Source: Phycisphaera sp. (GTDB taxonomy: Bacteria; Planctomycetota; Phycisphaerae; Phycisphaerales; Zrk34). From it: a DNA stretch of 64,000 nucleotides. Below the pieces are notes generated by a model. It saw only the letters and a list, made by a program, of their open reading frames with translations. It searched no databases and was not told the origin of the DNA. Within the stretch, counting starts at the first letter, position 1. Every line of letters starts with the position of its first letter. Shown piece after piece: positions 53,064 to 56,731 of this stretch. The position numbers were made by a program, and so were the translations under genes. Location of the stretch: contig WGMA01000023.1 of assembly GCA_016125285.1 (NCBI GenBank), positions 1-64,000 on the forward strand, in the 5' to 3' direction.

Positions 53064-53801
53064 TCACGCCTTGACCCCGCCGAACGCCGCGAAGCACGCG
53101 TGCTTGTGCAGCAGGTCCACCTGAGAAAATCCCACGTCGCGCAGCAGGTCGAGCTGTTCGAGCACCGGCCGCGGCGTGTCCTCCATCGCGATATAGCCGA
53201 ACACGCGCTCGCGGTACGCCGCGCCGCCCGACGCCTCGAGGTATTCGCCGTACAGCCGACGCGACACCCGCTCGACGCCCGGCGTGCTGTCGCAGATCAG
53301 GTCGCTGATCCACACCGACCCGCCCGGCCGCAGCCAGCGGAAAAGCTTCGCGAACACGGCCCGCCACTCGACGTCCGTGCGCAGGTGATGCAGCACCGAC
53401 CCGGCGACGATCACGTCGACGGATTCGTCGTCCAAGTTGACGTCGCGCACGTCGCCCTGCACCGCGCGCACCACGCCGACGTTCACCGCGTCGTCCGCGA
53501 GACGTTCGACGGCGCGGTCGAGCATCGGGCGGGACAGATCGACGAGCGTCACGTCGAGCCCGGGCAGGCGTTGCAGCATTCTCAAGGTGAAGTTGCCCGC
53601 GCCGCAGCCGATGTCGAGCATCGCGCGGGCGTTCGGCGTCGTTTCCGCCGCGGCTTCGACGACGAGGCGCAACAGCAGCGGCGCGTCCATCGCCGCCGCC
53701 TGCCCGGTGTCGAGATTGGAAAAGCGGTCCACCTCCGCGTCGAAGCGATCGCGGATCTCGTCGACGGTGGACTTGCGGGTTGGTTCGGTCGGCTCGGCCA
53801 T
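53064..53801 (-). CDS. SAM-dependent methyltransferase (class I)
   Basis: A 245-residue product. SAM motif I is MLDIGCGAGNFTLRMLQRL, motif II-like is VTLVDLSRPMLDRAVERL, motif III-like VRAVQGDVRDVNLDDESVD and GSVLHHLRTDVEWRAVFAKL, and motif IV LFRWLRPGGSVWISDLICD. The methyl acceptor is unknown. The ATG overlaps the stop of the upstream carbonic anhydrase-like gene (TGATG at 53799-53803), so the two are translated together. Confidence 0.85.
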   Translation of the reverse strand: MAEPTEPTRKSTVDEIRDRFDAEVDRFSNLDTGQAAAMDAPLLLRLVVEAAAETTPNARAMLDIGCGAGNFTLRMLQRLPGLDVTLVDLSRPMLDRAVERLADDAVNVGVVRAVQGDVRDVNLDDESVDVIVAGSVLHHLRTDVEWRAVFAKLFRWLRPGGSVWISDLICDSTPGVERVSRRLYGEYLEASGGAAYRERVFGYIAMEDTPRPVLEQLDLLRDVGFSQVDLLHKHACFAAFGGVKA

Positions 53802-54271
53802 CACATCGGGATCGGGTCGAAGTCGACGGCGTTGTTGTGCACGCTGGCGAGGAACGCCTCGATCTTCAGGTCCGGCGCGAGCTTGTGGAGGTGCTCGGCG
53901 GCGCGGTGCACGTCGTCCAGTTGACGCTGCTTGGCCTCCTTGGGCGGCAGGCGCAGCAGCTGGGCGTAGTGGGCGCAGCCGAGGTGCTGGATGAGCACCA
54001 TGCGGTTGATGTCGTGCACGTCGAGCAGGAAGCCGATCTGCTTGTCGGCGGCGCGGTGCTCGGTGAAGGTCTTCGAGTTGGTCGCCAGCACGGCCGGGCC
54101 GCCGGGGATCGCCAGGCGGTCGTAGCGGTCCAGCTTCAGCACGTTGTACAGAAAGTCGTCGAACTGCTCGCCGAAACGGCCGTCGCTGCAGTACACGGCC
54201 GCGGCCTTGATGCGCTGCTCGACATAGGGCACGGAGCTGTGGAACAGGTGTGTCTCTCGCGTATCGGGCAT
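53801..54271 (-). CDS. Beta-carbonic anhydrase-like protein
   Basis: A 156-residue product. AAAVYCSDGRFGEQFDDFLY contains the C-x-D-x-R zinc block of beta-carbonic anhydrases, LAIPGGPAVLATNSKTFTEH resembles their 'xRNAG' block, and VLIQHLGCAHYAQLLRLP provides the H-x2-C pair. Thus the Cys, His and Cys zinc ligands are present, but the chain is short and lacks other conserved regions, so its activity may differ. AGGAGA precedes the ATG at 54271. It lies upstream of a methyltransferase with overlapping start and stop. Confidence 0.72.
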   Translation of the reverse strand: MPDTRETHLFHSSVPYVEQRIKAAAVYCSDGRFGEQFDDFLYNVLKLDRYDRLAIPGGPAVLATNSKTFTEHRAADKQIGFLLDVHDINRMVLIQHLGCAHYAQLLRLPPKEAKQRQLDDVHRAAEHLHKLAPDLKIEAFLASVHNNAVDFDPIPM

Positions 54272-54364
54272 CACGTCTCCTGGGTTGCTGGGGTGTCGTG
54301 GGCGCGGACCGAGCGCCCGTTTCATGCACAGATGCCACAGGTCAGCGGGGGGTTACGGACTTTT

Positions 54365-55990
<1,626 letters not shown>

Positions 55991-56071
55991 CGTGTGTTCC
56001 TCGTGGGACTCGGGCCCCCCGCGGGGGCGTGCGTAACGTATCTTTCGGTGATTCGGGCCGTGTCGGGTAAC

Positions 56072-56098
56072 AAAAAAACCCTGCCAACCGGCAGGGTT
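56072..56098 (-). terminator. Rho-independent terminator of the cimA attenuator
   Basis: Read on the minus strand, AACCCTGCC / GGCAGGGTT form a 9-bp stem with a 4-nt loop, followed by seven T residues. It lies about 80 nt before the cimA start codon and 28 nt after the leader-peptide stop. An alternative 12-bp pairing exists between 56126-56137 and 56084-56095 that would prevent this hairpin from forming. Confidence 0.88.
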
Positions 56099-56126
56099 CG
56101 TCGTTCATACAGGATGACCGCGTCGC

Positions 56127-56186
56127 CTACCGGTTGGTGTCGGAGCTAATAATCATGGCGATCGCGATGTCGATGCGGTTGCTCAT
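56127..56186 (-). CDS. Isoleucine-rich leader peptide of the cimA attenuator
   Basis: A 19-codon reading frame, MSNRIDIAIAMIISSDTNR, with Ile at positions 5, 7, 9, 12 and 13. The ATG at 56186 is 9 nt after the -10 box, so the transcript starts at or within about 3 nt of it. The TAG stop lies inside the antiterminator strand. Ribosome stalling at Ile codons would leave the antiterminator free and permit cimA transcription; efficient translation would cover it and cause termination. The mechanism is inferred from structure and codons. Confidence 0.82.
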   Translation of the reverse strand: MSNRIDIAIAMIISSDTNR

Positions 56187-56195
56187 AGCCGATCT

Positions 56196-56224
56196 ACTAT
56201 AGCGACGCCGGTTTGCCCGGGCAA
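56196..56224 (-). promoter_or_regulatory. Promoter of the cimA leader-attenuator unit
   Basis: On the minus strand -35 TTGCCC (56219-56224), a 17-bp spacer and -10 TATAGT (56196-56201). It is the clearest two-part promoter in the window. Confidence 0.78.
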
Positions 56225-56242
56225 GGTTTTTCGACTCGATCC

Positions 56243-56261
56243 GCAGGGGCTCCGCCCCTGC
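56243..56261. repeat. Hairpin GCAGGGGC/GCCCCTGC
   Basis: 8-bp arms with a 3-nt loop (56243-56250 and 56254-56261), between the zinc-ribbon gene stop (56309) and the cimA promoter. It may help terminate the upstream gene; the T-rich part (CGAAAAACC on the minus strand) follows further downstream. Confidence 0.6.
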
Positions 56262-56308
56262 GCGACCCCGCAAGCCCACCCCTGCGAGCGGAGCGAGACG
56301 GGGTGGGA

Positions 56309-56731
56309 TCACGCGTCGAGGTCGATCATTTTCTCGCCGCAGACCGAGCAGTTCCCTTCTTCGGCCCCGTATCGCGGATTCTGTCTGACGAGGTCCTTAC
56401 CGAGTTTGCTGTCAGGGTCGATCCAGACGAAGGGCTCGCCGCAATGCGGGCAGCAGGGACCGATTTTCTTGCCGAACCAGAGTATCGCCCAACCCGTCAG
56501 GGCCGTCGCGATTACGAACAGCACCGCAAAGAGCGTCAGGCCGAGCCACTGTTGCGGTGTATCGCGAACGGGATCGACCACGAAGTGGATCGCCGAGAAG
56601 ATACTGCCGACCCACGCGAAAATGATGAAGATGATCATCAGCCCCATGCGGGCGCCGCGACGTTTCACCTTCGACAGCTTCAATAGCTGCGGCTCGTTAG
56701 TCGCGCCCGGTTCAGTTCCCTCGGATTGCAT
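56309..56731 (-). CDS. Two-helix membrane protein with C-terminal zinc ribbon
   Basis: A 140-residue product with membrane segments GLMIIFIIFAWVGSIFSAIH and LGLTLFAVLFVIATALTGWA, then CCPHCGEPFVWIDPDSKLGK and GNCSVCGEKMIDLD, a CxxC...CxxC zinc ribbon. A TACAAT box ends 6 nt before the ATG, so the mRNA may be leaderless. Function unknown. Confidence 0.72.
   Translation of the reverse strand: MQSEGTEPGATNEPQLLKLSKVKRRGARMGLMIIFIIFAWVGSIFSAIHFVVDPVRDTPQQWLGLTLFAVLFVIATALTGWAILWFGKKIGPCCPHCGEPFVWIDPDSKLGKDLVRQNPRYGAEEGNCSVCGEKMIDLDA

Follow-up and report, generated by a model that had tools for sequence, protein, structure and literature searches.

What governs expression of the citramalate synthase gene, cimA, in a planctomycete, and does the short isoleucine-rich reading frame in front of it act as the sensor? 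The question is raised by a locus of Phycisphaera sp. (assembly GCA_016125285.1), on the 64,000-nucleotide (nt) stretch of contig WGMA01000023.1 that was analysed (positions 1 to 64,000, here called the window), where all elements discussed lie on the minus strand upstream of cimA. The gene cimA encodes the enzyme that opens the citramalate route to isoleucine (Ile). Most known cases of ribosome-mediated attenuation come from Proteobacteria and Actinobacteria. An initial annotation, made from the DNA alone, had read the region as a complete attenuator with an Ile-rich leader peptide. Our analysis supports that reading and adds to it a conserved protector stem, formed between leader codons and the bases after the stop, which had been overlooked. 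Sequence and comparison together document a leader, three alternative stems, their co-variation, a specificity for Ile codons, and an association with cimA and with the isoleucine--tRNA ligase gene (ileS). We conclude that cimA is very probably controlled by a ribosome-mediated transcription attenuator that senses isoleucyl-tRNA.

A leader peptide and three alternative stems before cimA

The features on which this conclusion is built are as follows, in ascending coordinates.

54365..55990, minus strand: cimA, citramalate synthase (TIGR00977), the regulated gene
56072..56098, minus strand: intrinsic terminator formed by strands 3 and 4, with a stem of 9 base pairs (bp), a GGUU loop and a U tract
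56084..56095, minus strand: strand 3, CCUGCCGGUUGG, the antiterminator partner, overlapping the terminator 5' arm and loop
56116..56127, minus strand: strand 2, protector part, GGCGACGCGGUC, beginning at the last base of the stop codon
56126..56137, minus strand: strand 2, antiterminator part, CCAACCGGUAGG, which holds the leader stop codon
56127..56186, minus strand: leader peptide open reading frame (ORF), MSNRIDIAIAMIISSDTNR plus TAG, 19 codons, with its ATG at 56186
56157..56171, minus strand: strand 1, the leader codons of the protector stem, pairing with strand 2
56196..56201, minus strand: -10 box TATAGT, with a 17-nt spacer to the -35 box
56219..56224, minus strand: -35 box TTGCCC, a consensus match only, at 4 of 6 positions

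The product of 54365-55990 scores 633 bits against TIGR00977, for which the cut-off is 450, confirming the earlier assignment of the downstream gene as a genuine cimA. The leader carries five Ile among its 19 codons (codons 5, 7, 9, 12 and 13), and the 12-bp antiterminator, which includes one U-G pair, joins 56137-56126 (CCAACCGGTAGG) to 56095-56084 (CCTGCCGGTTGG); the TAG stop lies inside the antiterminator strand, a placement conserved in relatives. The terminator itself (56098-56077) reads AACCCTGCC / GGTT / GGCAGGGTT and is accompanied by a run of seven Ts at 56078-56072, two of which fall within the 9-bp stem. All these elements had been described in the initial annotation and are present as it gave them, as is the promoter-like pair TTGCCC/TATAGT with its 17-nt spacer, the only such site in 55800-56500 (0.1 expected from shuffles). 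The newly recognized protector pairs 56171-56157 with 56127-56116. Because its second strand shares its first bases with the antiterminator strand, protector and antiterminator are mutually exclusive, and with this stem included the RNA of the window displays the full 1:2 / 2:3 / 3:4 architecture.

Such an arrangement suggests the following course of events, in which the transcript start, the translation of the leader and the switching itself are what we infer. Transcription would begin with the leader ATG or a few bases upstream of it, and a ribosome would translate the 19 codons behind RNA polymerase. With isoleucyl-tRNA scarce, the ribosome would wait at one of the five Ile codons and occupy strand 1, leaving strand 2, the stop region, to pair with strand 3; no terminator would form and cimA would be transcribed. 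With isoleucyl-tRNA plentiful, the ribosome would reach the stop and cover strand 2, and strands 3 and 4 would form the terminator. Were the leader left untranslated, the protector stem (1:2) would be expected to form and transcription to terminate.

Conservation and co-variation in relatives

Searches located cimA in eight further members of the family, on 80 named public contigs and, across the class, in 114 of 159 genomes; upstream DNA was taken for 100 of these 114. In each of the nine family genomes, window included, the leader starts at an ATG, runs for 17-21 codons of which 4-6 encode Ile, and ends at a UAG set in GGUAGG; the terminator carries CCCUGCC in its 5' arm, together with a U tract. 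An ATG ORF of 12-25 codons with at least four Ile, no more than 300 nt upstream of cimA, accordingly occurs in 9 of 9, where dinucleotide shuffles lead one to expect 0.08. Strict counts of the same ORF in two further families gave 4 of 7 (0.04 expected) and 8 of 16 (0.135 expected), and leader, stop within the antiterminator, and terminator are found in many genomes of both. Among 66 named loci, mostly from Planctomycetia, cimA is preceded in 21 by an ORF of 12-32 codons that holds five or more Ile, versus 1.2 expected; valine (Val) was also raised in these loci (11 versus 3.2 expected), and leucine (Leu), threonine (Thr) and alanine (Ala) were not enriched in their leader ORFs. In several of these loci the stop is UGA and the terminator takes the form CCUCAGG...CCUGAGG. 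Ile-rich ORFs of Omnitrophota (L087, L090) were not counted as leaders, since by eye they look like the end of an upstream coding gene.

The leaders to be aligned were chosen by Ile content and the presence of a terminator; hence their Ile counts are not independent evidence, and the pairings played no part in the choice. In the resulting alignment (A1; 30 sequences, with the leader starts of L009, L015 and L018 set by hand), peptide sequence and length vary freely outside the Ile codons, and the number and position of the Ile codons vary too. Conservation is seen in the reading frame of the leader (ATG, Ile codons, stop) and in the strands that pair, with no other conserved core visible. Cells of the alignment belonging to the antiterminator are paired in 91% of cases, versus 31-56% after a slide of one to three columns, and those of the terminator in 94%, with compensatory changes, versus 34-62% after the slide. 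The initial annotation had named conservation as the point on which its reading could fail; Ile codons, stop in the antiterminator and terminator are all retained, with compensatory change.

Pairing energies tell the same story for both of the stems that involve strand 2. The antiterminator (22 nt around the leader stop against the terminator 5' arm) has a mean of -20.0 kcal/mol (n=40), compared with -6.5 to -8.1 kcal/mol for the same terminator arm against other, upstream parts of the leader in the same number of sequences. When its partners are swapped between species the mean weakens to -17.1 kcal/mol, and none of 20000 permutations reaches the observed value (n=40); the corresponding z is -8.8 for all 54 leaders and -4.0 for the 14 leaders with stops other than UAG. 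The protector (leader codons against the roughly 20 nt directly after the stop) behaves likewise, with a mean of -16.7 kcal/mol in its own species, -13.1 kcal/mol when swapped (0 of 20000), and -7.3 for a downstream control stretch (n=30). Stop identity changes together with the terminator arm, as in GGGUAGGGC with GCCCUGCCC, and in other families stop context and arm change jointly (GCCUUAGGGC with GCCCUGAGGC; UGAGG with CCUCA). Three leaders have a displaced stop (L017, L117 and L212, the last an ileS leader), and their core is GGCAGGG, the exact complement of CCCUGCC, rather than GGUAGGG; the U of GGUAGGG is therefore the price of accommodating a stop codon.

The -10 boxes of relatives (TATAAT, TATACT or TACAAT) stand at a similar distance from the leader ATG. 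This gap is 9 nt in the window and 6-10 nt in 23 of the 27 leaders of the aligned group with a recognizable -10 box, compatible, by promoter consensus only, with a 5' untranslated region of 0 to about 4 nt. The closeness of ATG and -10 box argues that the leader is probably translated from a leaderless mRNA here, as in most relatives. The initial annotation had called such a start unusual; it is conserved in this group, and leaderless leader ORFs are known from the attenuator of Corynebacterium glutamicum ilvBNC (PMC11857589) and from Sinorhizobium meliloti trpL, whose transcript starts with the ATG (PMC7298713).

Codon choice is a further point in favour. Leader Ile codons comprise 65 ATT, 50 ATC and 2 ATA, favouring an ATT that is nearly absent from the GC-rich structural gene (ATC only, 22 codons, in the cimA of the window; 91 ATC, 9 ATT and 1 ATA in four relatives). 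Rarer control codons are common in attenuators, and the preference for ATT could also be explained by a need to keep the control region unstructured.

Isoleucine leaders before ileS and a leucine version before leuA

A covariance model, R1, built from the 30 cimA-type leaders and run on 297 genomes of the class (E <= 0.001), returned 39 matches in 32 genomes. Thirty-one lie directly before cimA and eight before ileS, and none of the 297 genomes holds a match elsewhere. Five of the eight ileS proteins were scanned, and TIGR00392 was the top family in all, two that are truncated falling under the full-length cut-off. The ileS leaders (L206, L207, L208, L209, L212, L213, L214 and L217, from eight relatives) read, for example, MHKTTDSIAIIITSPKNR and MRKIALIARMIIIPRKHG, and their antiterminator and protector energies are mostly like those of cimA leaders, L212 being weaker. 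Isoleucine is almost all that cimA and ileS have in common, and this distribution therefore strongly supports the charging of isoleucyl-tRNA as the signal, and it independently bears out the earlier proposal that the Ile codons are the sensor. In the window's own genome the cimA copy is the only one that R1 finds at a significant E-value; a short-pattern search for further copies yielded nothing useful.

The same layout is found in this genome with other sensor codons. Its leuA, an HMGL-like gene (G000:C64, L001), is preceded by a leader MDRNAYQNDGLLLSLVLLLSASGG ending in UAG, with 7 Leu among 24 residues, in which GGCGGAUAGGG pairs with CCCUGUCUGCC of a terminator and the UAG stop again falls inside the antiterminator strand; the leader starts 8 nt after a -10-like TAGACT box. 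Among the relatives L199-L205, six of seven have a Leu-bearing leader whose stop region and terminator carry matching motifs, mostly GCGGAUAGG with CCUGUCCGC, a form absent from L202. A Leu-rich leader before leuA argues that the layout is general, with sensor codons matched to the enzyme, and the two attenuators found in this genome stand before the genes for the first committed step in the Ile branch and in the Leu branch.

No such leader was seen before leuS or valS of the same genome. A candidate leaderless ORF before ilvB (L195, G000:C13), MYLIDALWRLLFGTPLFKRVPVAVRRRAPRITK (MYLIDALWRLLFG...), lying 8 nt after a TATACT box, was not counted, no terminator being seen. As a side observation, leuS (L224) and trpE (L226) show an apparent -10-like box about 10 nt before the ATG of the structural gene, from which leaderless mRNAs may be common in this organism. 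At the cimA locus, a carbonic-anhydrase-like ORF (53801-54325, minus strand; called by eye from its translation) begins some 40 nt past the end of cimA, possibly on the same transcript.

Viewed across the phylum, these observations incline us, with some reserve, to the broader proposal that Planctomycetota own a widespread family of leaderless leader-peptide attenuators. A single scaffold, with the stop built into the antiterminator, would have been reused with other codons as sensors and before other genes (for cimA and ileS, Ile; for leuA, Leu; in Planctomycetia, Ile and Val, with UGA stops), and one homologous Ile switch would couple isoleucine synthesis to the charging of isoleucyl-tRNA.

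Predicted switching, rival readings and known systems

The two states of the RNA were compared in silico: a ribosome was placed with a chosen codon in its A site, the stretch it covers was masked and the remainder folded, an equilibrium treatment in which the order of co-transcriptional folding is ignored. In the window, the antiterminator has a probability of 0.97-1.00 with the A site at codons 4-13, a zone that includes all five Ile codons, and the terminator one of 0.97-0.99 with the A site at codons 2-3, 14-19 and the stop (0.99 at the stop). Under this mask, Ile-codon stalls favour the antiterminator and the stop favours the terminator. These results are stable to the assumed edge of the ribosome, except mainly at codon 13. 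Over the 30 aligned sequences, the mean antiterminator probability is 0.15 for free RNA, 0.51 on Ile stalls and 0.00 at the stop.

Several observations weigh against the attenuator and are best considered together. A stall at codon 13 of the window yields the antiterminator only if the ribosome edge is set at 14 nt or less, and for 9 of the 30 aligned sequences the antiterminator, under equilibrium folding, does not rise above a probability of 0.5 whichever single Ile codon holds the ribosome. The naked RNA is nearly balanced, the minimum-energy fold of 56060-56195 being the antiterminator and that of the stretch from ATG to T-run the terminator. The region folds only weakly better than its shuffles (z -1.7, single-sequence folding), and the case therefore rests on comparison. 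Within that comparison, the antiterminator swap confined to the family (n=9) is not significant, because the sequences there are nearly identical, and the permutation tests treat sequences without regard to shared descent. The distribution of the leader is also uneven: within the window's own class some families are without it (1 of 25, versus 0.8 expected), the ileS of the window's genome has none, and its ilvB, ilvD and trpE have no such attenuator. Finally, the -35 box of the window is weak.

There are other ways in which the locus might be explained. One would be that the upstream gene (56309-56731), which is on the same strand and ends about 120 nt before the leader, has an ordinary terminator here next to a chance Ile-rich ORF, the switch being illusory. 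The modest single-sequence z would fit this view, which is nevertheless extremely improbable given that many genera retain the leader, the context of its stop and the terminator, with co-variation, and that the leader recurs before ileS and, in its Leu version, before leuA. A pair of folds that exclude each other and end in a terminator would equally suit an RNA that binds a ligand or a tRNA directly, whether a T-box or a new amino-acid riboswitch, with the ORF incidental. We consider this very improbable: no Rfam family, the T-box included, matches the window or 11 representative relatives at the gathering threshold, conservation is confined to coding frame and pairing strands, and the Leu version before leuA alters the codons, not an aptamer. 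Neither the T-box nor the ilvB-type leader motifs appeared even among the weak matches to the region; those that did (rnk_pseudo at E 0.21, Hrs1, isrJ and RAGATH-32) are far under their gathering scores and were dismissed.

Two further explanations were weighed. The peptide itself might act, either as a nascent chain that arrests its ribosome or in trans as a small regulator, and the peTrpL peptide of S. meliloti is cited as precedent (PMC7298713). The free variation of its sequence and length, and of the number and position of its Ile residues, is unlike what an arrest motif or a small regulator would need, and makes this decidedly unlikely. Alternatively, the attenuator could be just as described but respond chiefly to general ribosome supply or to the coupling of transcription and translation, and not to isoleucine. 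In favour of this, the terminator prevails in the free RNA between ATG and T-run (0.90), so that expression requires some form of leader translation. Against it, the leaders are enriched in Ile, joined by Val in some Planctomycetia, with no such excess of Leu, Thr or Ala, and both targets, cimA and ileS, are specific to isoleucine; a predominantly general input is accordingly a very remote prospect. Attenuation governed by isoleucyl-tRNA accounts best for the comparative record.

Full-text literature searches brought up no such attenuator for cimA, for ileS or for any planctomycete, in agreement with the initial annotation, which knew of no description for a planctomycete cimA; an earlier prediction may exist in a 2010 comparative survey of attenuators (Lopatovskaya et al., cited in PMC4833913). 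On strong comparative evidence, our findings add planctomycetes as a phylum, the citramalate route as a pathway and an isoleucyl-tRNA synthetase gene as a target to the known range of attenuation, and the reach of the element, to ileS, leuA and much of the phylum, was unexpected. They supply a ready covariance model for an RNA element absent from Rfam. They also imply tight coupling of transcription and translation on leaderless transcripts in planctomycetes, organisms whose cell organization once raised doubts about such coupling.

Among known systems, the enteric leaders of ilvGMEDA, ilvBN and leuABCD are the textbook cases of 1:2 / 2:3 / 3:4 ribosome-mediated attenuation that the present RNA resembles; they differ in having a ribosome binding site before the leader and, for ilv, in control by several amino acids. 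To our knowledge no enteric leader of this type acts on cimA, a gene that E. coli does not have. A leader peptide rich in the cognate residue also precedes a synthetase gene in E. coli pheST, in the form of pheM. Attenuators predicted for trpS and leuS of Streptomyces place similar cognate-residue-rich leaders before synthetase genes, like the ileS copies described here, in contrast to several actinobacterial ileS genes, which carry T-boxes (PMC1262725). Candidate attenuators with upstream ORFs are also known for branched-chain genes outside the classical phyla, namely the ilvB-OMG and Leptospira ilvB motifs (PMC10272879); these lie upstream of ilvB, and their leaders are rich in branched-chain residues and Thr. 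The trpL leader of S. meliloti shares the leaderless ORF (PMC7298713) and differs in sensing tryptophan and in belonging to a proteobacterium. Also alike is ilvBNC of C. glutamicum (the ilvB-II motif), with a short leader peptide rich in branched-chain residues and no ribosome binding site, a transcript start one base from the leader ATG, and three alternative hairpins ending in a terminator (PMC11857589; PMC10272879). That system differs in controlling acetohydroxyacid synthase, in a leader that contains Val, Leu and Ile, and in its phylum. Set beside these examples, the mechanism proposed here is classical, and it is the target genes, the phylum and the RNA family that appear to be new.
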